Part shown: positions 2,768 through 21,326 of the stretch, piece by piece
Layout of the letters: every line of letters begins with the position of its first letter
How positions within the stretch are numbered: position 1 is the stretch's first letter
Origin: a virus
IMG/VR virus record: IMGVR_UViG_3300042539_002203
Location: 1-21,326 of that record
Strand: one strand, 5' to 3'
Length of the DNA stretch: 21,326 nt
Program-made: the position numbers and the translations under genes
The notes under the pieces: model-generated
Told to the model about the DNA's origin: nothing
Database searches by the model: none
Seen by the model: only the letters and a program-made list of their open reading frames with translations

Positions 2768-2838
2768 TGCAGGTGAGTGAAACGGCTCACGCAAGGCTCA
2801 TAACCTTGAAACAGCGGGTTCGACTCCCGTGCCTGCGT
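2768..2838 (+). tRNA. tRNA-Met (anticodon CAT)
   Basis: A full cloverleaf can be drawn. The acceptor arm is TGCAGGT (2768-2774) with GCCTGCG (2831-2837). The D arm is GTGA/TCAC with GG in the loop. The anticodon arm is CAAGG/CCTTG around CTCATAA, giving CAT. The T arm is GCGGG/CCCGT around TTCGACT. CCA is not encoded. Odd points: only 71 bases, G in place of the usual U8, a U-G pair at both ends of the acceptor stem, and a very short D loop. The anticodon stem lacks the three G-C pairs of initiator tRNA, so it is an elongator Met or, if C34 is modified to lysidine, an Ile tRNA. Its last base touches the terL stop codon on the other strand. Confidence 0.75.
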
Positions 2839-4517
2839 TACCGTCCTCGTCCCCTCGATAATCCGGCCCTAAATTCGTTCACCGGGCTGGGCGATGCAAT
2901 CGGCATCACTCCATCATCATCATGTCCCAGAAACTCATTTTCAAGGGAATAGAACGCGCCAGACAAGGAATCAACTATGTCATTTACTGGTGGTGTCTTT
3001 TTGTTGCCATCAAAGTTCTGGCAAGCATTAAGAAATCGATTATTCCAGACGGAGTCACGAAGTAAAAATATCTGTCCCCTACTGGCCGCCGTGGCCGCAG
3101 GTAACGCCCGTGTTAATTTGTCTCCCTGTGGGGCGATCGCTGCCACATCATGATTCGGATGATATTCTCGGATGACATTGGTGATCGTATTTTCTACAAA
3201 TTTACCGCTCGATCCGCCCTCTTGTTCCCACCGAACCGCCACGGGTTTCCCATCTATCCCGGCAGTGTTTTTCAACATTAATTCAACTTCCCCGACTTTT
3301 TTCTGCTCACAGAGATTATCGGCGACAACGTAAACAAATTCTCTTACTTCTTTTCCGTCCGATAGTACGGTTTTAATACGCTCGTATTTATAAACAAGCG
3401 TTCCAGAAGTGTAGCAGTGATAATTCTCGGCATTTTCCTTCGCTGTAGCGGCCAAGTCCCAGAATCGCACTTTTCCGATCAGTTTCCAGTCATCGGGAAT
3501 GCTATCCAGTATCTCGAACCATGTGCGATCAAAAACAGTTCCAGCTTCATATTTAACCTTCCAGTTTCCCTTGAGTAGCCTTTCTCGCTCGATCGGATGG
3601 AGAGCGTACAGGTTAGCAAGGTAAGTAGGATTGACCTTAATTAAGGCTCGATTATCAAAAATTGTAGCGGGGATGAAAGTGAAGCTTTTTACTAAATCTT
3701 CTGGTTTAATTTTTACATCATCGTCCGCTAAAAACTCCTCTCGAATATCGGGCGGGATCATCTCGAAAAGCTTGTTTTTAAGGTCAAACTTTTCGATTAG
3801 TTCATCTCTTGTATCAGCCCAATGTACGGTATTTCCTTCTCGTACAAAATACCGCACGACTCCCGCTCTTTCCTCGATAGCGTATCCCGTCCGCGGGTCG
3901 ATCCACCACGAGATAAAATCGGCTACCCAACTATCAGCATCGGGGTTACAGGTAGCCCTGACTGCCGGCTTAATTCCCGATACCGATCTATTACGGGAAA
4001 GGAGATAGAAAAATTGATCTTCCGTAAAGTGAGTTAGCTCATCAAAGCCGATTCGGGCAATCTGCGCCCCTTGGTAGCTGTAAACGGTTTTTTCGTGCTG
4101 TAAATGCCGAAATGATATTCGCGAACCGCTTGCAAACCTCCATTCAAGGTTCGGTTTTTCTGCGAAACTTCCCTTGATCGGTTGATAGATTTTCCTGCTT
4201 TCATCAACCAATCCGCCCGCTTGCGTAAATTCGGGATAAGTACGCCGAAAAATTACCGCTCGGTAGTCGGGATTATCGATAAATTCTTGTCGGGCAAAAT
4301 CGACTAAAAGGGCGTGAGATTTCCCGGAGCCGGCCGCACCGCCGAAAATTATTACATCTGCGTCAACTGCCCCGAAAAGAGCCTGTTTTCCTTCCTGCAA
4401 ACGAGGAAATGTGACGATATTATTTGCCGCATTCGTTTCTTGAATGCGGCGATAGGTTTCCGTGTTGGATTTAATCTTTGATCGGTTTTTAATCGATAGT
4501 CCGTTACGGAATTTCAT
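2838..4517 (-). CDS. terL: Phage terminase large subunit
   Basis: This is the ATP-driven motor and nuclease that packages phage DNA into procapsids. The 559-residue protein has the two expected domains. The N-terminal ATPase has Walker A GGAAGSGKS at residues 59-67, Walker B ending in IGFDE at 156-160, and coupling motif TCNP at 189-192. The C-terminal RNase H-like nuclease has RFWDLAAT at 351-358 (D354), acidic residues in RWEQEG near 431-433, and NDIVDSLSGAF at 512-522. The start at 4517 follows the stop of the upstream small gene by 3 bases (TAAGCAATG), so translation is probably coupled; no strong ribosome binding site is visible. The gene is last in a minus-strand run with the probable small subunit two genes upstream. 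Length and motifs are complete, so it may be functional. Confidence 0.95.
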   Translation of the reverse strand: MKFRNGLSIKNRSKIKSNTETYRRIQETNAANNIVTFPRLQEGKQALFGAVDADVIIFGGAAGSGKSHALLVDFARQEFIDNPDYRAVIFRRTYPEFTQAGGLVDESRKIYQPIKGSFAEKPNLEWRFASGSRISFRHLQHEKTVYSYQGAQIARIGFDELTHFTEDQFFYLLSRNRSVSGIKPAVRATCNPDADSWVADFISWWIDPRTGYAIEERAGVVRYFVREGNTVHWADTRDELIEKFDLKNKLFEMIPPDIREEFLADDDVKIKPEDLVKSFTFIPATIFDNRALIKVNPTYLANLYALHPIERERLLKGNWKVKYEAGTVFDRTWFEILDSIPDDWKLIGKVRFWDLAATAKENAENYHCYTSGTLVYKYERIKTVLSDGKEVREFVYVVADNLCEQKKVGEVELMLKNTAGIDGKPVAVRWEQEGGSSGKFVENTITNVIREYHPNHDVAAIAPQGDKLTRALPAATAASRGQIFLLRDSVWNNRFLNACQNFDGNKKTPPVNDIVDSLSGAFYSLENEFLGHDDDGVMPIASPSPVNEFRAGLSRGRGR

Positions 4518-5930: not shown

Positions 5931-6533
5931 ATGCCAGATAAGTTAGCGATCGAATATTGCCGCCTCTCCGATCTTGTTCCGCTAAAAAGCAATTCCAAAA
6001 AGCACGCAACCGAAAACACGATCGCTCTGATTCTTGAATTTGGATTTAAAGACCCGATAGGCATAGACCCGTCTCTTAACAAGGGGAAAGGAGGGATTAC
6101 AGAGGGTCATGATCGCCGTGCGGCTTTACTAGAAATCAAAAAACGGAATATTAAGCCGCCGCGGGGAATTTTGACCGATAAAGACGGAGAATGGTTAGTG
6201 CCTGTTTTGATAGGAGTAGAGGCGGAAAGTGAGGGAAAAGCTGTAAAATACTCCATTTTACACAACCATTCTACGATTCACGGGGCAGGACTCGATCCTA
6301 TCGATGAGCTAAAATTATTCGATCACGATCTGCTACTCGAACAAGCAGAATATCTCGATAGCGAGGGGGAAAATTTAGGAGCGATCGGGGATTTAAATTC
6401 AATTCTTGCCACCTTGAATGTAGGAGACAGCGACGATAGTGGCGATGAAATTCCCGACGATAATCAAGATATAGATGAAGAAAGCTTAGGAGAAACCAAA
6501 CACGAATGCCCAAACTGTGGCTTTAAATGGTGA
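5931..6533 (+). CDS. ParB/Srx-fold domain protein with C-terminal Cys pair
   Basis: This 200-residue protein has a ParB-like domain at about residues 6-118: the YCRLSDLVPLKSN start, the helix around ENTIALILEFGFKDPI, and the ITEGHDRRAALLEIKKR box at 56-72 that matches the ParB GxxR (CTP-binding) motif. It ends in HECPNCGFKW, a single CxxC that could be half of a zinc-binding site shared in a dimer. Phage ParB-like proteins of this kind are usually next to DNA methyltransferases, as here: the next gene overlaps or abuts this stop. They are not necessarily partition proteins; some have nuclease or DNA-modification roles. Residues 145-190 are a long acidic linker. Domain call firm, role uncertain. 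Confidence 0.85.
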   Translation: MPDKLAIEYCRLSDLVPLKSNSKKHATENTIALILEFGFKDPIGIDPSLNKGKGGITEGHDRRAALLEIKKRNIKPPRGILTDKDGEWLVPVLIGVEAESEGKAVKYSILHNHSTIHGAGLDPIDELKLFDHDLLLEQAEYLDSEGENLGAIGDLNSILATLNVGDSDDSGDEIPDDNQDIDEESLGETKHECPNCGFKW

Positions 6534-6538
6534 TAGTT

Positions 6539-7555
6539 ATGACGTGGAATTTTCACCCAAAACCACAAACAAAACCGATTACAATACGAGAGGCTTTTAG
6601 GGGATTAAACGAGAGCGAACCTTGTCCGATTGTTATGCCCGAATATATCCGAAAAGTCGCTAGGGAGATAACACCGGGGGATTTTAATAGCGACAAGGTA
6701 AAGCCGATACTTGCCAAGCATAATAATGGGAAAACGGGCGGTTTTATGAGTTTAAAGCGACTATCATGGCACAAAGAATCATGCACTCTTATTAAATCTT
6801 CCCACTGGGGAAACATCGGCATAATTCACCCCAATGGTGAGCGGTTTATCAATGAAGCGGAATTAAAGCGGGTTGGGAGTTTTCCCGACGATTTTATATT
6901 CCCTGATTCCCTCGGATTTAAAAATGTGATCGAGCGGATCGGGAATTCAGTCCCCCCCAATCTAATGCGGGCGATCGCTGAGAATATCAAAAATTCACCA
7001 TTTCTTCGAGATACCGATCGCCTGACCGCGATCGATACTTTTTCAGGATGTGGAGGATCGTCGCTCGGATTAAAGCTCGCTGGCTACGATGAACGCTTGG
7101 CCGTGGAGTGGGATGATAATGCGTCCGCTACCTACCGAGTCAATTTCCCCGACACTCCCCTGTATCATGGCGATATAGCAAAACTTTCCCTAGAAAAAGC
7201 GATCGAACTATCGGGATTGAGACTTGGAGAACTCGATTTACTCACTGGCTCACCGCCCTGCCAAGGATTCAGCGTGGCAGGGAAACGAAACCTGTATGAT
7301 GATCGCAATCAGCTATTTAAAGAGTATTGTCGGTTTTTGCAGGGTTTCAAGCCAAAAGCGTTCGTGATGGAAAATGTGCCCGGTATGATTTGTGGCCACA
7401 TGAAACAGGTCGCTCTCAATATATATAAAGAGTTGCGATCCTGTGGGTACGAGGTCAGGGGGCAAGTCCTCAACGCTAAATACTATGGGGTTCCGCAATC
7501 TAGGGAGCGGGTGATCCTAGTCGGTGTACGCTCGGATTTAGTACAGAGGCATTAG
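6539..7555 (+). CDS. DNA (cytosine-5)-methyltransferase with circularly permuted motif order
   Basis: This enzyme transfers a methyl group from S-adenosylmethionine to C5 of cytosine. All key motifs are present but in rotated order. Numbering from the ATG at 6527: a recognition-domain-like part comes first (about 17-110), then FPDDF (119-123), motif X IGNSVPP (138-144), motif I AIDTFSGCGGSSLGL (168-182), motif IV GSPPCQGFS with catalytic C245, motif VI ENVPG (282-286) and motif VIII QSRERV (324-329). The protein stops just after VIII. Usual enzymes begin with motif I and end with the target domain, IX and X. The ATG at 6539 is preferred because GGTGA lies 5 bases upstream; the ATG at 6527 overlaps the ParB-like stop and lacks one. 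The gene is followed by a terminator. No restriction endonuclease is visible nearby, so it may be an orphan phage methyltransferase. Confidence 0.92.
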   Translation: MTWNFHPKPQTKPITIREAFRGLNESEPCPIVMPEYIRKVAREITPGDFNSDKVKPILAKHNNGKTGGFMSLKRLSWHKESCTLIKSSHWGNIGIIHPNGERFINEAELKRVGSFPDDFIFPDSLGFKNVIERIGNSVPPNLMRAIAENIKNSPFLRDTDRLTAIDTFSGCGGSSLGLKLAGYDERLAVEWDDNASATYRVNFPDTPLYHGDIAKLSLEKAIELSGLRLGELDLLTGSPPCQGFSVAGKRNLYDDRNQLFKEYCRFLQGFKPKAFVMENVPGMICGHMKQVALNIYKELRSCGYEVRGQVLNAKYYGVPQSRERVILVGVRSDLVQRH

Positions 7556-13184: not shown

Positions 13185-13580
13185 ATGATCAACTGGAACC
13201 TCGGAAAAGAATTAGCCATCGAAGGATTTGAGGAAATGGTGAATGAATTCGCTCAAGAAATAACCTATCAAATCCGCGATCCAAAATGGCAATGGCCGCG
13301 GGAAACGAGACGGCAAAACGGCATGATCGTCGGCTCTCCCCGGGACATCGTTGACACAGAAGAGCTAAAAAATAGCCAGTTTATCGAACATATTAGCGAT
13401 ACTGACAAAATTATCGGCTATACCGCCGAACACGCCCCTTATGTTCACGAAGGATACGAAATAGAGCGGGCTGATGGGGGGATAACCGATGTTCCAGCGC
13501 GTCCGTTTATTACCACAGCAGTCGAAGATTATGATCCGCTTGAAAGTTACGCTGATATTATGAGGGGAAAAATAGGTTGA
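13185..13580 (+). CDS. HK97 gp10-like head-tail connector / minor structural protein
   Basis: This 131-residue protein fits the phage gp10-like family of neck proteins that help join tail to head. The N-terminal helix (residues 1-30) is followed by the WPRETRRQNGMIVGSPRDIV segment with the typical 'T/N-G...V-GSPRDIVDT.EL..S' pattern at 36-65, then AEHAPYVHEGYE (80-91) and VPARPFITTAVEDY (103-116), which match the family's 'Y-P-VE.G....ARPF' end. The gene starts immediately after the previous stop and is 4 bases from the next ATG, in one structural operon. The family call rests on motifs; the fine role is from family knowledge. Confidence 0.8.
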   Translation: MINWNLGKELAIEGFEEMVNEFAQEITYQIRDPKWQWPRETRRQNGMIVGSPRDIVDTEELKNSQFIEHISDTDKIIGYTAEHAPYVHEGYEIERADGGITDVPARPFITTAVEDYDPLESYADIMRGKIG

Positions 13581-13584
13581 AAAA

Positions 13585-14031
13585 ATGAATGAAGCCGAAC
13601 TACGGGAAACCCTTCAAGCCCTCAGAAATAACCTAGAAATAATCCTAGATACCGATCTAGGAAAGTACGAGATAATCAATCCCACTGGGCAAAAAATAAA
13701 AGAAGTTCCCGCTATCTGGGTAGAGCCACCCGAACTACCCGCAAATTACCGAATAAAAGCGAATAGCGGAATTGAGGCGATTATCCAACGGGAACCCGAC
13801 CCCCGTTACGATCCCCTGCTCGGTAACTACATTGAGATGGCAAATTACACGATCGTCTTAAAGCAGTACGATCTGTCTCGTTCGCTGACTCCTGTAGTGG
13901 GCAGAATTCAAATTAGTCCTTACTGGAATATCCTCGAATTGCCCCGCGTGACTGCCTACCTAAAAACAGCCGAAGGCATAATCCGACCGAAAGCCACTAT
14001 CAAAGTCTCCACTGCCAAACTTTTAAGGTAA
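13585..14031 (+). CDS. Probable tail terminator / completion protein
   Basis: This 148-residue protein lies between the gp10-like protein and the tail tube, where siphophages and myophages usually carry the tail terminator. It begins with an amphipathic helix (ELRETLQALRNNLEIILDTD) and continues with alternating strands such as MANYTIVLKQYD and PVVGRIQISPYWNILELPRV. AGGTTGA before the ATG may serve as a ribosome binding site. No strong family motif is seen; the name comes from gene order and general shape, so it is moderate. Confidence 0.55.
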   Translation: MNEAELRETLQALRNNLEIILDTDLGKYEIINPTGQKIKEVPAIWVEPPELPANYRIKANSGIEAIIQREPDPRYDPLLGNYIEMANYTIVLKQYDLSRSLTPVVGRIQISPYWNILELPRVTAYLKTAEGIIRPKATIKVSTAKLLR

Positions 14032-14067
14032 AATATTACTTGAAACTTTCAGGTAAAAAATAAAATA

Positions 14068-14811
14068 ATGGCGACTTATTCAGACTTGCAAGCCCCAGAT
14101 AATTTAACGCCGTCACGCAACGTGAAAGTGCTAGTGTCTGGCGTTTTTGCTTACGGAGATCCTGCGCCTACTAGAACCGTCGCCCTCGCTGCAGGAGTTG
14201 ACGAGGGCGACGATCAGATCACCGTTGCGTCCGAAGGATTCGGACGCATCTTGTTCGAGGGAACCAAGATCGAGATCGGCACTACTGGGAGCTATGTTAT
14301 CGTTCGCAAAAAAACCACGACTACAACGCAGACAGTGATCGACATCGAACGAGCGAAATTCACGGCCGCTCTCGCTACTCCCACTCCGCAGACCTGTACG
14401 ATCCGAGCGTGGATCCCGGTGATTTCGGCCAAAACCTATAATATCGACGCAAGCAATAATGAAGGCTCTGACTCGGTATTCTCGGACGATCTGGCGATGG
14501 AGAAGTTTATCGAAAGCGTCAACTACACTGGCTCTATTTCTGGGCCGGAAGTGTACGGCGATCCCGCTCTAAAGGTCATTACCACAGCCGAAGAAGAAGG
14601 AGCGTGCCTGTATCTCGAAATTCTCAAGCCCGGACAGCGCGGCGGTCGTGACGCTCAGTGCTATGTGTCGCGCGGGGAGAATGGCGAAAAAGCGTCCTAT
14701 CTTCAAAACACCATCAACCTCACGATCACTGGTAAAGCGGGCTATATTGACGGTATGGCGACATCTCCGTTCGATAGTGATGTAGTTGCGGCTGACTACA
14801 CCTTAGTATGA
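14068..14811 (+). CDS. Probable major tail tube protein
   Basis: This 247-residue protein is beta-rich, with few long helices and many Thr/Ser/Gly strands (for example TVALAAGVDEGDDQITVAS near residues 37-55), as expected for tail tube subunits that stack into the tail's inner tube. A segment VNYTGSISGPEVYGDPALKV (about 151-170) resembles tube proteins of this group. It lies just before a chaperone with a frameshift and a tape measure gene, the usual tail order. Its GC content and codon choice are higher than its neighbours (many CTC, ATC, GAC codons), as for a highly expressed gene. The stop overlaps the next start by 4 bases. Confidence 0.75.
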   Translation: MATYSDLQAPDNLTPSRNVKVLVSGVFAYGDPAPTRTVALAAGVDEGDDQITVASEGFGRILFEGTKIEIGTTGSYVIVRKKTTTTTQTVIDIERAKFTAALATPTPQTCTIRAWIPVISAKTYNIDASNNEGSDSVFSDDLAMEKFIESVNYTGSISGPEVYGDPALKVITTAEEEGACLYLEILKPGQRGGRDAQCYVSRGENGEKASYLQNTINLTITGKAGYIDGMATSPFDSDVVAADYTLV

Positions 14812-15077
14812 TCCGACACCTAGTAGACGCGGAACAAGAGGTATTTCTCGTAAATTGCGAGATTCGTGGGGAATATCTCTATTTTCGTGTCGGCGTGTTT
14901 GACAGAGAAATAAAGCAGAAAAATAAAGTTCTTCGCTCCGATCCCGATCCGAGGGGGAATCGAGACGAAATAGAGATAGAGCTAGACCCTTTGTGGCTTG
15001 ATGATCTTCCTCGGATGAAAAAAAATAAACGGGCAAAAATAAATGGCATTAAGTATTTTAGGGAAACTCAAAACTAA
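14808..15077 (+). CDS. Small tail-operon protein, unknown
   Basis: This 89-residue protein is not recognised. It has an N-terminal strand-rich part (EVFLVNCEIRGEYLYFRVGV) and a highly charged C-terminal half. Its ATG overlaps the tail tube stop by 4 bases (ATGA), and its end overlaps the chaperone gene by 35 bases. Tight overlap on both sides supports it as real. It could be a small tail-assembly factor; that is inference from position. Confidence 0.65.
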   Translation: MIRHLVDAEQEVFLVNCEIRGEYLYFRVGVFDREIKQKNKVLRSDPDPRGNRDEIEIELDPLWLDDLPRMKKNKRAKINGIKYFRETQN

Positions 15078-15801
15078 CGAAACGTTTTTCTTCCCCTTGC
15101 GAAAAGAATGGATCGAGTACATTGACGACGAAACCCTACTAGAAAAACTCGATTCGATCGCATTAGAAAAAGATGGGGAAATCGGGATCGAATTCCTTAA
15201 GCGGTACGGTATCCACCCCTCGGAAAATAAAGCTATGCCGGTCGCCTCCGAAGCGCGAGACAAGGCTGACAAGGCGTACTTAGAACAGTTAAAAGCAGTC
15301 AGTCAAAAAACAGGGCTGTCTGTTGGAGAGGTCGAATCGATCGTTACTAGCGACAATTCGCTACTTGAAAAAGTAGAAGAAATAATTGTCAATGCAGCGG
15401 AAACGGTTGAGCTAGAAAGTGTCGAGAAAAAAATAGAGTCGGCAAAAATAGCCCAAGAATCTATTGTAAATTCCCGTAAACGCCGGCGAGAGTTTAGCAA
15501 AGAAACGGCTGACTTAATCACTCCTTACCTTGACGAACTAAATAAGCTCTATCAAGAAAGAGTAGACACTTTCGACAATTACAATCGGGAATTAATCCGA
15601 TTGTTTTTGAATAGCCCGCGCCGAACAAAAAAAGCGGGGGTAGAGTTTAGTCGAGAAGACATCGATGCTCTCCACCCTAGTATGTTGGTGCGCCTCTATA
15701 ACGACTATGTTTATGCAGATATTAGTCAGTGGCCAAAGCCGTCCGAAAAGGAACCAGAACCTAAAGAAAAAGAAGATGAGGAAACCGAAAAAAACGAATA
15801 G
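15043..15801 (+). CDS. Tail assembly chaperone, short form (lambda gpG-like position)
   Basis: This 252-residue protein occupies the place of the lambda gpG chaperone, between tail tube and tape measure. The N-terminal part (MALSILGKLKTNETFFFPLR) is followed by long charged helices and a Glu/Lys-rich tail. Such chaperones coat the tape measure protein and recruit tube subunits during tail assembly. Near the end, codons GAA AAA AAC GAA TAG contain the slippery heptamer A_AAA_AAC in the right frame. Ribosomes that slip here read on into the -1 frame and make the long form. The assignment comes from gene order plus this signal; sequence similarity to lambda gpG is not apparent. Confidence 0.8.
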   Translation: MALSILGKLKTNETFFFPLRKEWIEYIDDETLLEKLDSIALEKDGEIGIEFLKRYGIHPSENKAMPVASEARDKADKAYLEQLKAVSQKTGLSVGEVESIVTSDNSLLEKVEEIIVNAAETVELESVEKKIESAKIAQESIVNSRKRRREFSKETADLITPYLDELNKLYQERVDTFDNYNRELIRLFLNSPRRTKKAGVEFSREDIDALHPSMLVRLYNDYVYADISQWPKPSEKEPEPKEKEDEETEKNE

Positions 15802-15823: not shown

Positions 15824-16247
15824 AGAAGCGATAAACAACCCGATTGATTGGGAGAAAATCTATTTTCAGTGGTTCGCTTGGGGATTGCCGGCCGAAGAGT
15901 GGCACGAATGGCCAGACTGGATGATTCTCAAAAAATGGTCGGGAGTGCAGCGAATCAAGGCAGAAGAAATAAACTCGCTATCGGGAACCGTGAGCCAGAT
16001 TGCCGCAATGGTTCATTCCTACATGAAAGCCCAAGCCAAGGATAGCGGAAAAATAAGCGACCTCACCCCAGGGGATTTTCTCCCATACCGACTGGAAAAA
16101 GAGAAAGAAACTTTCTTCGATCCCGAAACCGCCGAGATATTGGTAGAGGCATTAAAAGCCGGGGAAGTCCCCGTTTATGCCCTACAAATAATCGTGGATT
16201 GTGGACTATACGACGAACTCATACAGCTAGGAGACAAGGAAAAATGA
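15795..16247 (+). CDS. Tail assembly chaperone, -1 frame extension (gpGT-like)
   Basis: This frame has no ATG near its start and is read as a fusion after slippage: join of 15043-15795 and 15795-16247, about 401 residues in all. The extension begins RIDEAINARLEAINNPIDWE and contains a Trp-rich block (FQWFAWGLPAEEWHEWPDWM) like that seen in the T part of many G/GT chaperone pairs, then two helical parts. A TTG at 15885 could act as an independent start, but the open frame upstream and the slippery site make fusion far more likely. Its stop overlaps the tape measure ATG by 4 bases. The T part normally binds the tail tube subunit, while the G part coats the tape measure. Confidence 0.8.
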   Translation, partial: RIDEAINARLEAINNPIDWEKIYFQWFAWGLPAEEWHEWPDWMILKKWSGVQRIKAEEINSLSGTVSQIAAMVHSYMKAQAKDSGKISDLTPGDFLPYRLEKEKETFFDPETAEILVEALKAGEVPVYALQIIVDCGLYDELIQLGDKEK

Positions 16248-19200
16248 CCGTTTCACTAGGTACGCTAGAAATCGGACTAGGTTTAATTACTACTCAGTAC
16301 GATACTGGTATCGCACGGGCAAAAGGTCAACTTGTCTCCCTACAGCGTATGGCCGCCCGCTCTGGGGTGACGGTGAAAATCGGGGTAAAAGTAGATGATC
16401 GCCCGTTGTACCAACTAAACGATCACCTTAAGTTAAAACGGGATGACCTCGATAAAACCAGCGATCACTATCGGCGCAACCCTATTCGGGTATTTGTCGA
16501 GGATCGGCAACTTGTTAGTCTTAATCAGCAGTTGCGAGAGTTAAAGCGTGTCAGCGTTGATATAAAAGTTCCGTCCCGACTTGTGGTCGAGCATCGGTTT
16601 TCGGGGTATCAGGACAAAGTAGAAAAAGAGATCGAGCGATCAACATCTCGCCTTGCCTCAGAAATCCGAAAATCCTATAGCCGCGGAGGGATTGTTGGGG
16701 CGGCTAGTCGCTTAGTAACAGGCGTCATTGCTTTACCTTTTAAAGCTACTGCGACGGTTTTAAGAGACGTTGTTAGAGGCTATTTTGAAAGAATCGGACA
16801 AGAATTTTCTAACACTTGGGCAGTAGAACCATCACGCAATGCTGCAAGAAAAATAACTATTGCTATCAAAAAAATAGACAGATATTTATTAGGACAAAAT
16901 CAAGTTCTTGAAACTTACTTGTCAGAATTGACTCGCTCTGGAAGCACAGAAAAAGCATTTAACGCCGCTTTTAAAAGAACTAATGTAAATCAGGTAATAG
17001 AAAGGTTTAAAACTCTACAAGAAATAGCTACGGTTCCTGCAAGTAAAACAAAGGAAAGATTAAGGTTAATTCAAAAAGACCCTGAACTATCGAAAATACT
17101 CAAACAATCAACAGAGGAAATACAAAAACAATATGCAGGACAGGGGTTGTCCAAAGCTGAAATAGCAAATTTATCAATGCAACGATTTTTAGAAAATGCA
17201 CAACCTCAGACAAAAGTAGTTAATATACTTAATTCTTTTTTAAAAGAAATTAGCCCCTTTTTACGCTTCGTACAGGGAATGAAAGACTACAGAACTTCCC
17301 TAGAAGCCCAAAAGATTTACAGTGAAAGAAAGGCGGGTTTCCCAAAATTAAAAGAAGGGGAAGACGTTGTTAGCGTCATTGGAGGCGCACAATTTAGAGG
17401 GGGGCAAGGCGGGCGTAAAGCAGCTATGTCTTTAGAGCCGTTAGCTCCCCAAAAAAGATTTATTCCTGTAGAAAATCCTGAAACCGATACCGATTTAGAA
17501 AATGAAAGGCCAGCAGAAAAACAGTTTAAGGCTTTTATTTCTCGGAATTTAACCTTTTTAGAAGGGGAAGAAGCTCTAAACACCTTAATAAACGCTTTTA
17601 GGCAAATATCGTCTAGCTTGGACGCTTTTACTCCGTCAACTGCTGCGGCTCAAGCATTAGCCAACACAATGCTTGCTCAAGAGCAAGGACGTAAAGGAAA
17701 TGTTGTTTCATATTCTTTGGGTGGTGTGGATAATATTCAATATGCCAGAACCGCTCAATTTATGGGAGTAAAAGATACTCAAGCGTTAGCAATGGCTTAC
17801 CCTTTTGTTGACATAACCCAAAGCACACCCAAAAACTTCACGGCTTCGATGCTAACGTCCGATCCCCTCGGCTTTGTCAAGCTTCTAGGGATCGGGAATA
17901 AAACAAATCAATTTATGGGGATAGAAAGCACAAACCCCTATGGAAGTGCAAATCACCATCAGAAACATCTTTTTAAAAACATAGAATTTATAAATAAGTT
18001 TTTTGCAACAATTAACGCCAATATTCCAGATTTATCTCCTGGCAAAATATCAGCAATTGTAGAAGCAGGAGATAAGCTTTATGAGTTAATCGGTTCGATG
18101 AATCAAATAGAATCGGTGTTGAGTACAGGAGAATTTAATACCGATCTGCCTTTCCACAGATTTTTGCAAGGATACGATGGGCAAACCACCAAGTCTAATG
18201 TCTTAGACTTGGTGTTAGAAATGATGCAAGATAACTTCGCAATTGAAGCATTTAAAGATGTGGAAGGAGCAGAAGAATTTTATGCAAAGTTAAGAAATCA
18301 ATTTGACAAAATTGCATCACAATTTAAAGAAAAATTTCAAGCGTCAGGCGTTAATTTACCAGAAAACCTTGCTAGAGATTTTGCTGGTTTTCTGAAATAT
18401 CAGGAAGTGGCAGAAGGATACAATAAGTCCATGACGGAATTCCAGACCGGAAAAGTCTCTGAAAAACCGTCATGGTGGGCTGGCAATCTCGATCCCAATA
18501 CCGTAAAACAGCGCACTGGGAAGCTACAGACAGAAACTATTCCATGGTTTAGAAAAGAAGGCTCTAAATTTGGCTCCTATCAAGACGCTTTAATAGAAAT
18601 GTTTACCTTGATTGACAAGGTAACAAAAGAATATGTTAGTCGAGGCGGGAATTTATCGGACGAAACCAGACAAAATCTTAAGTTTTTCCCAACTGAAACA
18701 ATCCCAAGCGAAATAAACGCTTTTTTGGGAAAATCATTTCCTACCAAAAATTTACCCAAAGAAGAAATTGTTAGAGACTTAAATCTGCAATTCCCTGAAT
18801 ATACTGCTTCAACATCTAATTTAACTGCTTTACAAAAAATTGATTATGAAGCTGAAAAACAAAGAGTAACTAAGTTATTTAGAAATAGGCAAGCGGCTAT
18901 TCTTGCGTACAATAAATTAATCACGGAACTAACCGCTGAAATTGTCCCTAGTATAGACAAAATAAAAGCGATCGGTACGGGTTTTCCTGAACTAGGAATG
19001 CACGGCTCCTTTGCCTTTTTAACTGATGAATTTGTTTATAAAACCGATATTGACCCAGAAGGTGTTAATAAAAAGATAGCAACTCCTAATGAACTAGAAA
19101 CATATAAACAATTACAGGGGAGACTATCGCCGCTTCTTTATAAAGCGGTTCCCGATAAAGCTATCGTCACCGAAAGAATACAAGGAAAAACGCTAAAAGA

Positions 19201-21326
19201 AATTTTAACTAGAATAGCGCAACCGTTCAAGAAAGTTCAGAAACAATTGGCGGATGCTACCCTTGCGCTAGATAAAGTCACAAAAGAAGGCAATGAAGCT
19301 GAAATAGAAAGATTAAACAAAGAAATAACAAGTTTAGAAAAAACAGCACAAAAAGAAAAAACTCGCTTCAATAAAGCGGCAACCATTCTTTATAAACAGG
19401 TTGGACAATTAAACTCGGCATTACAAAAAATGGGTGTTGTCCATAATGATTTGGCCGAAACTAACGTATTTTTCTCGCCTCAAGGAATTCGGGCTATAGA
19501 CTTCGGTGGATCACAGGTTAATCCTACAGCCGCTCAAAAAATTGAAGACAAGAAAACCGTCATAGATAGAATGATGGGGAATAATCAGTATAAAGGTTTG
19601 ATGGACAAAACGGCCGTGGCTGGGGCTATTTTGTCTGGTTTTCAATCCCCTTTGCCAATACCTGAAAAACGAACCGTTGATCCAGAAAAGTTAAAACAAA
19701 CCACGCCAGGACAATTAATAGAACTAGGATCAACTAATCCCACGCTCTTGCAGCAATACGGTGAGAAAATAACCTACCCTAAAACAAAACCATTTTCTAT
19801 ACCTCCAAAGCAAGAAAAAGTTACTACGCCAAAAACTGAGAAGCTTAATCCTACTGTATTTCTAGAACAATCCTTAACCAGAAATACAGACAGAGCTATA
19901 ACAGCGTTAAATTCTATAGAACAAGCTTTAAATGAAATAAAAAAAGGTATTCTGGCTAAATATGCTAGTCCTTTAATCGATCCGTGGCAAAATAGCACGC
20001 CTGACCCGTGGGCTAAATCTAACGCCGAATTAATGCGGGCTTTTGTAGATGCAATTAACAAGGTATCCTCACAAAAGCTTTTGCCGCCCGCTCCTGACGA
20101 TTTTGGCAGTAGTGAAACAGATAGAGGAAACAGCCCACTAGAAAAAATCTTAGAAGATATATCTATTAAAGCCCAAGCGGGTTTAAAAAGTGCTTTAACT
20201 ACTAGATTATCAACTCCCGATAGTAGTGGTGAAATACAGCTTTTAACAGGGCAAGAAAACATTTCAGAACTGTTAAATCAGGTATTAATTAGAGAGGTAA
20301 AAGAAGCGGGCAGAATACTTGGAAACGCTCTCAAGGATGCCTCTCTAGATGTCGTCAAGTTCGGTCAAATTGTTTTCACCGTTCTAAAAGCGATCGAACG
20401 TCCCGTTATGGCTATTCCCGGTGTGGGACTGGGGAAAAAAGCACTACAGGTAGGGGGAACCGCCGCAATAGGAGCGGCCGCTCTCCACGCACTCCCGATG
20501 GGGTTAGATGCCACAATCGTTAACGAGATGCGAAGCATTCTAGCGGGGGCAATGAGTGCAGGCGGTCGGGAAATGATCCAAGCCGTAGCCACACAAATGA
20601 CTCAAGCTTTTAGCGGCTTGCCGTTTGGAGTGGGACAACAGTTAACGGAAGCGGTAATGAACCTTGTTACCGAACTAACCAACGGCACTATCAGCGTCTT
20701 AGCGCAAGGGGGGGCGGTCGCTGGATCGGCGTTAATGGCGGGGGAAGGGGTTAAGAAGCTTTTAGGGGCGGCTACCAGTAGCGTCCCTAAATTAATTGAC
20801 AAAGAAGAACAGCAAAAAATTGAAGGTAAAACCCAGAAACTTTTAAAAGCCGCAAAAGATAAAGCCGGTTCTTTAATTACTACTGAAATAACCCCATATT
20901 TTGACGAAAAAGCTTTCCCGGTAAGTAGTCCTATTCCAGCTAACATCAAGGCAATTAACCCAAAATATTACACGGTAAAACAATTACGAGGATTAGCTAG
21001 AGATCAGGGAATTGATGTACCAGCATCGGGAGCAGGAGCCAGAAAAGAGGAAATATGGAAATCATTAACTGAAAAATTTAACCCTGACCAACTAACTCGA
21101 CTTTTACTAACAACAAAAGCAAGTGATAGAACAAAATTAGGGAAAAAAGAACTTAGTGGATTCCAAGTTGAAACTACAGAAATTCCTGCTGATTTTACCA
21201 AGAGAATTGGCATTGGCATAAAAAACATTGGTCAAGAAATTAATACTACTAAAGATATCCAATCTTTAGAACGTCTTTATTTTCAATTAGAAAAAGTTAA
21301 AAAGGGAATTACAGCGTTAAGAGCTA
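16244..21326 (+). CDS. Phage tail tape measure protein with embedded kinase-like and hydrolase-like domains, partial at 3' end
   Basis: Tape measure proteins set tail length and pass into the host membrane or cytoplasm at infection. This frame is open for about 1694 residues to the window edge. Residues 1-170 are strand/coil and end in a hydrophobic patch near 160. Residues about 485-580 contain VVSYSLGG (S491), SDPLG (D540) and NPYGSANHHQKH (H571/H572/H575), like an alpha/beta-hydrolase triad. Residues about 905-1110 look like a kinase: Gly-rich GMHGSFAF, VYKTD (K933), ELETY (E952), a VTERIQGKTL hinge, then VVHNDLAETNVFF (D1069, N1074) and AIDFGG (D1086). A coiled coil (about 997-1050) is inserted in it. 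Residues 1393-1490 are Ala/Gly-rich hydrophobic, typical of tape measures, and 1575-1608 resemble SAP/Rho-N. Position after the chaperone and length support the tape measure call. Confidence 0.85.
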   Translation, partial: MTVSLGTLEIGLGLITTQYDTGIARAKGQLVSLQRMAARSGVTVKIGVKVDDRPLYQLNDHLKLKRDDLDKTSDHYRRNPIRVFVEDRQLVSLNQQLRELKRVSVDIKVPSRLVVEHRFSGYQDKVEKEIERSTSRLASEIRKSYSRGGIVGAASRLVTGVIALPFKATATVLRDVVRGYFERIGQEFSNTWAVEPSRNAARKITIAIKKIDRYLLGQNQVLETYLSELTRSGSTEKAFNAAFKRTNVNQVIERFKTLQEIATVPASKTKERLRLIQKDPELSKILKQSTEEIQKQYAGQGLSKAEIANLSMQRFLENAQPQTKVVNILNSFLKEISPFLRFVQGMKDYRTSLEAQKIYSERKAGFPKLKEGEDVVSVIGGAQFRGGQGGRKAAMSLEPLAPQKRFIPVENPETDTDLENERPAEKQFKAFISRNLTFLEGEEALNTLINAFRQISSSLDAFTPSTAAAQALANTMLAQEQGRKGNVVSYSLGGVDNIQYARTAQFMGVKDTQALAMAYPFVDITQSTPKNFTASMLTSDPLGFVKLLGIGNKTNQFMGIESTNPYGSANHHQKHLFKNIEFINKFFATINANIPDLSPGKISAIVEAGDKLYELIGSMNQIESVLSTGEFNTDLPFHRFLQGYDGQTTKSNVLDLVLEMMQDNFAIEAFKDVEGAEEFYAKLRNQFDKIASQFKEKFQASGVNLPENLARDFAGFLKYQEVAEGYNKSMTEFQTGKVSEKPSWWAGNLDPNTVKQRTGKLQTETIPWFRKEGSKFGSYQDALIEMFTLIDKVTKEYVSRGGNLSDETRQNLKFFPTETIPSEINAFLGKSFPTKNLPKEEIVRDLNLQFPEYTASTSNLTALQKIDYEAEKQRVTKLFRNRQAAILAYNKLITELTAEIVPSIDKIKAIGTGFPELGMHGSFAFLTDEFVYKTDIDPEGVNKKIATPNELETYKQLQGRLSPLLYKAVPDKAIVTERIQGKTLKEILTRIAQPFKKVQKQLADATLALDKVTKEGNEAEIERLNKEITSLEKTAQKEKTRFNKAATILYKQVGQLNSALQKMGVVHNDLAETNVFFSPQGIRAIDFGGSQVNPTAAQKIEDKKTVIDRMMGNNQYKGLMDKTAVAGAILSGFQSPLPIPEKRTVDPEKLKQTTPGQLIELGSTNPTLLQQYGEKITYPKTKPFSIPPKQEKVTTPKTEKLNPTVFLEQSLTRNTDRAITALNSIEQALNEIKKGILAKYASPLIDPWQNSTPDPWAKSNAELMRAFVDAINKVSSQKLLPPAPDDFGSSETDRGNSPLEKILEDISIKAQAGLKSALTTRLSTPDSSGEIQLLTGQENISELLNQVLIREVKEAGRILGNALKDASLDVVKFGQIVFTVLKAIERPVMAIPGVGLGKKALQVGGTAAIGAAALHALPMGLDATIVNEMRSILAGAMSAGGREMIQAVATQMTQAFSGLPFGVGQQLTEAVMNLVTELTNGTISVLAQGGAVAGSALMAGEGVKKLLGAATSSVPKLIDKEEQQKIEGKTQKLLKAAKDKAGSLITTEITPYFDEKAFPVSSPIPANIKAINPKYYTVKQLRGLARDQGIDVPASGAGARKEEIWKSLTEKFNPDQLTRLLLTTKASDRTKLGKKELSGFQVETTEIPADFTKRIGIGIKNIGQEINTTKDIQSLERLYFQLEKVKKGITALRA

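Follow-up and report, generated by a model that had tools for sequence, protein, structure and literature searches.

A Bud32/RIO-like kinase-fold domain in the N-terminal extension of giant phage tape measure proteins

The protein kinase of phage T7 is a stand-alone enzyme that is made after entry. Functional motifs are also found within the tape measure proteins (TMPs) of actinobacterial phages, and to our knowledge no kinase is among them. As mentioned in passages of a recent paper (PMC13277306, 2026), these motifs are C-terminal and possibly modulate the host; the same passages describe Sle1-type effectors of contractile injection systems, which are related to TMPs and have exchangeable domains. 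Kinase domains occur in polyvalent phage proteins that are predicted to be injected (Iyer et al. 2017, PMC5512222). In the relevant parts of that paper they are described as being without the C-terminal subdomain and as coming mainly from (pro)phages of Verrucomicrobia-Chlamydia and Bacteroidetes. For phage enzymes packed into the head, injection together with the DNA has been proposed or shown, as passages of PMC9503650 and PMC5512222 put it. Here, we describe a kinase-fold domain that is part of a TMP. It is encoded in IMGVR_UViG_3300042539_002203, a 21,326-base IMG/VR virus record and single metagenomic fragment, which was analyzed over its whole length and is called the window in the following. 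The window encodes a kinase-fold domain of Bud32/RIO-like type (positions in Table 1). On balance, we lean towards the view that this domain is a catalytically competent kinase within a polyvalent TMP, a tail-delivered enzyme platform with an early host target.

The locus shares features with each of the described systems. Like the T7 kinase (named in PMC5512222) it would be a phage kinase that acts on host proteins, but the T7 enzyme is not borne by a TMP. With the actinobacterial phages it has in common that a functional motif sits within the tape measure. The kinases of polyvalent proteins likewise lie in large multi-domain phage proteins; however, according to the parts of PMC5512222 that deal with them, they have an insert between the catalytic His and Asp, while H, N and D are contiguous in 25/25 TMP kinases. 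Since this insert is missing, we rejected membership in that group. The word 'tape' is absent from the main text of PMC5512222. The Sle1-type effectors resemble the locus in their TMP-related scaffold, in their exchangeable functional domains and in their delivery from a tail-like particle, but in the passages of PMC13277306 they are cellular effectors and not phage TMPs, their variable part is C-terminal and the word 'kinase' does not occur. Among the open-licence PubMed Central papers listed by our searches, no published TMP with a kinase came up. In passages of PMC8876498, PMC10343443, PMC9341999, PMC6102473 and PMC7824862 that mention such terms, they refer to separate genes, to words in reference lists or to unrelated text. 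Injected phage kinases and TMP-derived effectors are already known, and a kinase within a TMP appears to be new among the open-licence papers searched.

The kinase-fold domain and its active site

Relatives of the domain were collected from 25 IMG/VR contigs, which form clades A (4 contigs and the window), B (2), C (11) and D (8). When excised, the window domain matches the RIO1 family PF01163 with 23.1 bits, above the gathering cut-off of 22 (E 6.2e-5). The whole window open reading frame (ORF) scores 20.1 bits and complete TMPs score 18.7-18.8 bits, both below that cut-off, and only 47-48 positions are aligned. The Pkinase, Kinase-like, Kdo, choline kinase and APH families also match the excised domain, each below its own cut-off. 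In NCBIfam the Bud32 model TIGR03724 ranks first in 4/4 clade representatives, one per clade (E 2.6e-9 for A, 5e-8 for C, 1.2e-7 for D and 2.5e-5 for B). All four scores are far below the curated cut-off of 125 bits, the best being 36.9 bits, and hence membership in Bud32 proper was rejected: the domain is a relative, not a member. A profile built from 12 TMP kinase domains matches kinases in the PDB (best E 6.7e-5) and also picks two copies of one non-kinase PDB protein at E 0.005. In PHROGs the window kinase matches phrog_4098, a family of unannotated function (E 4.5e-5), and phrog_3297 'kinase' (E 0.013). Matches in PADLOC to the PD-T4-6 and Stk2 kinases (best E 6.3e-5) were taken as general kinase similarity.

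The alignment of the kinase comprises 26 rows (25 contigs and the window), 18 of them distinct; one row is without the N-lobe and another without the C-lobe. K933, E950, the H and N of the catalytic loop, D1069, N1074 and D1086 show no substitution in any row that covers them. An earlier note, made from the letters of the window alone, had proposed a Bud32/RIO-like kinase on the basis of K933, a helix glutamate E952, an HND motif with D1069, N1074 and the D1086 of DFGG. Counted from the ATG, all these residues are present where the note placed them, and the fold is borne out by the RIO1 and Bud32 profiles, by a kinase-like AlphaFold2 model and by the invariant catalytic residues, with D1069, N1074 and D1086 kept in 25/25 rows. 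Its choice of glutamate did not hold. Residue 952 is K in 21/26 rows and E950 is kept in 26/26, so that E952 was rejected as the salt-bridge residue in favor of E950. The stretch GMHGSFAF is, as proposed, part of a Gly-rich loop, but the motif is better drawn as IGTGF....GSFAF with the invariant glycines G12 and G20; the loop differs in length and sequence between members, and clade C carries a clean G(T/A)GxxGAV. Likewise, the aspartate of the proposed DFG loop is constant, but its phenylalanine is found in 5/25 rows only and replaced by leucine in 20/25 (DFG 5/25, DLG 18/25, DLS 2/25). Domain position 79, just beyond the last predicted strand, is Q in 16/26, E in 8/26 and V in 2/26 rows.

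This pattern bears on two alternatives. It is improbable that the domain is a pseudokinase or an ATP-binding structural module that serves tail mechanics. Such a module would fit the variable glycine loop, the DLG or DLS in 20/25 rows and the weak N-lobe of the model, but the catalytic and metal-binding residues are invariant over four clades, of which B, C and D are 40-51% identical to the window kinase, and an invariant active site argues against a scaffold role, which would not need it. The ratio of non-synonymous to synonymous substitution rates (dN/dS) between the window and L005 is 0.14, which we count as a sign of selection in favor of an active kinase; between clades it is 0.1-0.3, with synonymous sites saturated. 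A chance motif or an assembly artefact has a negligible probability. In favor of an artefact, the window is a single piece of metagenomic DNA whose ORF is open-ended. Against it, 25 other records have the domain in an uninterrupted frame, and profiles and structure support it. A chance motif was rejected on the RIO1 and Bud32 profile scores and on the invariant active-site residues.

The AlphaFold2 model of the domain was built on 9 sequences and reaches a mean predicted local distance difference test (pLDDT) score of 75.6 and a predicted template modelling score (pTM) of 0.70, with the helices and the catalytic region well predicted. After DFG the model has helices at 195-210 and 221-232, followed by a part of low confidence. 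A Foldseek search against the PDB returned Rio2 (E 5.1e-4 and 9.0e-4) and Bud32 fusions as top matches. After realignment the best structure was PRPK/Bud32 (Z 11.8, root-mean-square deviation 4.4 over 161 residues); APH(3')-Ia had Z 11.0 and Rio2 had Z 9.3. The best 50 rows in each PDB structure comparison are all kinase-fold proteins by title, and the best viral-model match (E 1.2e-3) and most of the named top ones are annotated as kinases. With modest confidence, the model points to a two-lobe kinase fold, with a weak N-lobe and low template modelling scores (TM-scores) as caveats. The likeness to Bud32/PRPK (the KEOPS kinase) and to RIO consists of the best profile, these Z values, the HND...N...D site and the short region after DFG. 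The TMP kinase differs from both by a long helical hairpin before the catalytic loop and by being embedded in a tail protein.

The affinity to Bud32 and RIO favors a protein as substrate, and the similarity to APH leaves some room for a small molecule. An APH-, choline-kinase- or Kdo-kinase-like enzyme might modify a metabolite, lipid, sugar or other small defence compound. PF01636 (APH) matches 9/12 TMP kinase members at E <= 0.01 (best 7.5e-5), compared to 7/12 for RIO1, and in the structure comparison APH(3')-Ia does as well as Bud32. We nevertheless regard a small-molecule kinase as quite unlikely, given that Bud32 tops the NCBIfam models in 4/4 representatives, above the APH models in both representatives that list them, and that the region after DFG is short in the model.

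A giant tape measure protein with exchangeable modules

The ORF that contains the kinase is open to the window end and has 1,694 amino acids (aa) counted from the ATG at 16244, from which all window residues are numbered here. Profile searches with Pfam and PHROGs gave no TMP family match in this ORF alone, and the window by itself cannot identify a TMP, as it stops before the diagnostic PF20155 region. Full-length relatives of the window protein have 4,082-5,287 aa. In the two complete clade A relatives, L011 (record G003, 4,308 aa) and L012 (record G001, 4,318 aa), PF20155 (TMP_3) lies near residue 2,600 and is over the cut-off (E 3.6e-13 and 3.3e-13, respectively), together with a match to phrog_2335 tape measure. 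Of 14 records searched, 12 have PF20155 over the cut-off; it is missed in G012 and G013, both of them short and from clade B. The clade B protein in L016 stops after 2,130 aa, and a full TMP is seen in the other clades only. The family is not specific to phage records, as it matches in 5/14 control genomes and is over the cut-off in 3, where prophages are expected. Judged by its full-length relatives, the window protein is a TMP, which bears out the context that the earlier note had given to the kinase from a window that is insufficient for it. From the N- to the C-terminus the order is a possible hydrolase, the kinase, a block conserved between clades A and C, a variable slot and the TMP core, and this order shows the kinase to be located in the N-terminal extension of what, by homology, is a giant TMP. 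The earlier note had seen an insertion into a TMP. Embedded the domain is, but it does not stand alone as an insertion: it belongs, as one module among others, to a multi-domain protein that swaps modules.

The region in front of the kinase is a possible alpha/beta hydrolase. In an alignment of 8 sequences from four clades (A5) S177, D226, H257 and H261 are invariant, and an SxSLGG region is present. The model of the region (pLDDT 60) has its best match, with Z 7.2, to cutinase, which is below the safe level of the tool. Among the structural rows 30/50 are cutinases, most of which are variants of a single protein, and lipases, esterases, thioesterases or similar enzymes make up about 14 more; the best Foldseek match (E 0.076) is to FabG, which has a different fold. 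The region had no PHROGs match, no Pfam match above cut-off and a best PDB sequence match of E 0.97, and a match to PF17929 (18.1 bits, cut-off 26.3) was taken as chance. The assignment is therefore a weak one. A scan with the hydrolase region returned 24 contigs, all within the 25 kinase contigs, and the 25th contig begins inside the kinase. Hydrolase region and kinase go together and seem to form a constant N-terminal head.

Further downstream the proteins differ in their modules. The slots of L011 (aa 1717-2386) and L012 (aa 1717-2393) contain unrelated modules apart from a shared linker, and the flanks of the slot are 97.7-97.8% identical (97.7% over aa 1-1717). Unrelated modules also occupy the slot in L047, L048, L049 and L051, and the L012 module is found again in L048, there after a ParB-like module. 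As the window stops short of the slot, its own cassette is not visible. In PHROGs the L011 module resembles phrog_21 'portal protein' over the C-terminal part of that family (E 1.6e-62), and there is a weak match to a ParB-like nuclease family (E 0.0024). The motifs of this module are reminiscent of the DdrB/ParB domains of polyvalent proteins. This domain family is described in a passage of PMC5512222. The modules of L049 (aa 1531-2118), L047 (aa 1696-2115), L051 (aa 2419-2903) and L012 (aa 1859-2393) gave nothing in Pfam at E <= 0.01. The L049 and L047 modules may be akin to sequences of the ADP-ribosyltransferase/DUF3626 type. A 74-residue linker, defined in L011, occurs one to three times per protein in all 10 TMPs searched and is a possible recombination point.

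Toward the C-terminus, the clade C proteins L047, L048 and L051 carry endolysin-like and beta-lactamase-fold motifs. The families were measured in L047 only, where Pfam gives PF13354 (E 1.3e-25) and, just under the cut-off, PF00768 (E 4.2e-6), and PHROGs gives phrog_90 endolysin (E 6.8e-39). The same stretch of L047 also matches phrog_17230 'tail fiber protein/ lysozyme' (E 9.2e-38) and phrog_28672 'metallo-endopeptidase' (E 1e-25). Within the TMP, the beta-lactamase/DD-peptidase-fold domain (PF13354) stands beside the endolysin-like domain (L047:9480-12920), and for this domain a role on peptidoglycan seems likelier than one in resistance. The partial clade C protein L053 has neither the endolysin nor the beta-lactamase motifs seen in its relatives, and thus a C-terminal slot may be exchanged too. 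In clade B, tandem near-identical stretches (GLLPSSVDYRYN...) follow the kinase block (L022:7459-14511).

L011 combines the kinase with a ParB-like module, and L047 combines it with endolysin-like and beta-lactamase-fold domains, so that both proteins can be called polyvalent. The module-swapping slot resembles polymorphic toxins. Tentatively, polyvalent tape measures might be seen as a class of their own, at once tail ruler and polymorphic effector carrier, with a constant pair of possible hydrolase and Bud32-like kinase and then a slot where cassettes recombine and a linker is repeated; in the wall-active members the order of domains would mirror the order of delivery, from enzymes that cut the wall at the tip end to effectors for the cytoplasm beside the DNA. 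We hold this classification to be possible rather than probable.

Proposed delivery through the tail tube

In 80alpha the N-termini of the TMP adjoin the tail completion protein and the DNA its C-termini lie at the baseplate, and it is probably ejected along with the DNA (passages of PMC11661146). By analogy, the TMPs described here would be stretched along the tail tube, with the C-terminus at the tip and the N-terminus beside the DNA. The tip end would exit first; in some clade C relatives it bears domains with which the wall could be opened, of endolysin-like type and of the beta-lactamase/DD-peptidase fold. Last to enter, directly before the DNA, would be the N-terminal part with the possible hydrolase, the kinase and the exchangeable modules; the extension would in this way be injected with the DNA and would refold in the cytoplasm. 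There, the kinase might phosphorylate a host target early in infection, akin to the T7 kinase, and the swapped modules might be further effectors tuned to host or defence. We infer catalysis, ejection into the host and the substrate of the kinase. If delivery from the tail is true, the TMP kinase would represent a second, tail-lumen route of delivery, constrained by the threading of the chain through a narrow tube, and the tape measure would combine the role of ruler with that of effector. The kinase, the ParB-like module and the unassigned modules would then be expected to act at the start of infection.

The cysteine content provides weak support for an extension that travels with the TMP. 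Ten giant TMPs were counted (L011, L012 and L047-L054), which come from three clades, are not independent and include two partial ones. Together they have 1 Cys in 44,764 residues, at aa 3506 of L053 (...GSAGCIAF...). The N-terminal extension has 0 Cys in 1,848-2,942 residues in nine proteins divided at approximate boundaries. In other ORFs of at least 200 aa Cys makes up 1.1% (window), 1.2% (parts of G003) and 1.3% (part of G006); these ORFs were called mechanically and some are perhaps not genes. The Cys-free extension obeys the same rule as the part in the tail lumen.

Several points weigh against a kinase delivered from the tail. A folded 2,400-residue extension should be too big for a tail tube and would have to be unfolded or cleaved. 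Its size is also an argument for an extension that acts late in the producing cell, in tail assembly or host physiology, and is cut off before or during packaging. TMPs often appear fragmented on gels, as noted in a passage of PMC11661146, which fits such a cut. An action in the producing cell is nonetheless unlikely in our view, as the extension is Cys-free exactly like the part in the tail lumen and its modules vary as in proteins that are predicted to be injected. The absence of Cys is itself ambiguous: low Cys looks general to TMPs because the ordinary TMPs of lambda, a Rhizobium phage and a Methanoculleus virus have none either (3/3), and zero Cys may reflect TMP composition in general. 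Moreover, 1/9, 3/27 and 3/22 of the other ORFs in the three comparison sets are also without any Cys.

Further points of the same kind concern the wall-active domains and the kinase itself. Wall-active motifs are found in 3/4 clade C proteins and in 0 clade A or D proteins, and Pfam and PHROGs searches gave no endolysin family in the complete clade A proteins, so that in the clade of the window the tip-first scheme is hypothetical. Their absence from L053 and from this clade lowered our confidence both in delivery from the tail and in a class of polyvalent tape measures. A HExxH (zincin-type) metallopeptidase is the usual processing device of polyvalent proteins, common though not universal, and no HExxH motif is found in the 10 TMPs (two partial). 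The dN/dS is 0.42-0.46 within clade C and about 1 in two pairs of near-identical sequences, where changes are few (4 synonymous and 14 non-synonymous in one, 1 and 4 in the other). In the kinase model the N-lobe is poor, with a pLDDT below 50 at residues 25-40. Only 2/1,057 PDB matches reach E <= 0.001, with TM-scores of 0.26-0.43 among the matches listed, and 0/385 viral-model matches reach that E value.

Related records, host hints and gene neighborhood

A search of INPHARED phages with the window TMP gave little or nothing at E <= 1e-3. For one clade D TMP a megablast search of INPHARED returned little or nothing, and the same holds for the clade C and D kinases at E <= 0.1; no cultured member phage came up in these INPHARED searches. 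The window kinase gave only matches at E >= 0.6 there, spread over 32 records whose listed annotated features include no tape measure. In plasmids little or nothing was found by megablast, and protein matches were weak (best E 0.02). Scans of genome contigs gave no relative, using short peptide patterns that could miss distant or prophage relatives, and none of the 24 contigs found in a viral scan with the four-clade alignment was new. The earlier note had looked to related cyanobacterial prophages for the same domain. It does occur in related phages, but their cyanobacterial origin is weakly indicated. Upstream of a clade C TMP a homologue of the formylglycine-generating enzyme is encoded (L058:2435-3067), and cyanobacteria account for 7 of its 10 best listed plasmid matches. 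The same homologue matches 594 plasmids, by number most often those of Sinorhizobium and Klebsiella. We take this as a weak hint of a cyanobacterial host.

The window encodes a terminase large subunit and hence comes from a tailed phage. The four ORFs upstream of the TMP gene have no Pfam match, and their role as a probable tail module is deduced from their position (Table 1).

Table 1. Positions of the kinase-fold domain, its active-site elements and neighboring features in the window
Feature	Position	Strand	Basis or remark
Bud32/RIO-like protein-kinase-fold domain	18947..19729 (aa 902-1162)	+	profiles, model, conserved residues
Glycine-rich loop IGTGF....GSFAF	18971..19018	+	G at domain positions 12 and 20 in 25/25 rows
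Lysine K933 (VYKTD)	19040..19042	+	K in 25/25 rows with sequence
Glutamate E950, likely partner of K933	19091..19093	+	E in 26/26 rows
Long helical hairpin, hinge to catalytic loop	19193..19429	+	model helices 83-114 and 117-161
Catalytic loop HNDLAETN (D1069, N1074)	19442..19465	+	H, N, D, N in 25/25 rows
Metal-binding DFGG (D1086)	19499..19510	+	D in 25/25 rows
Possible alpha/beta-hydrolase-like domain	17186..18100	+	SYSLGG elbow; invariant S, D, H
Tape measure protein gene	16244..21326 (ATG 16244; alternative start TTG 16199)	+	runs past right end of window
120-aa ORF	15885-16247	+	between four-ORF tail module and TMP
Probable tail module, four ORFs	13185..15801 (13185-13580, 13585-14031, 14068-14811, 15043-15801)	+	identical order upstream of TMP in close relative L004
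Terminase large subunit	2838..4517	-	PF03237 E 1.3e-27; tblastn matches in 1,758 phage records

Elsewhere in the window, a tRNA-Met (CAT) gene at 2768-2838 abuts the end of the opposite-strand terminase gene. A C-5 cytosine methylase is encoded at 6527-7555 (PF00145, E 1.9e-65) and a BRO-N protein at 1913-2725 (PF02498, E 1.7e-19).

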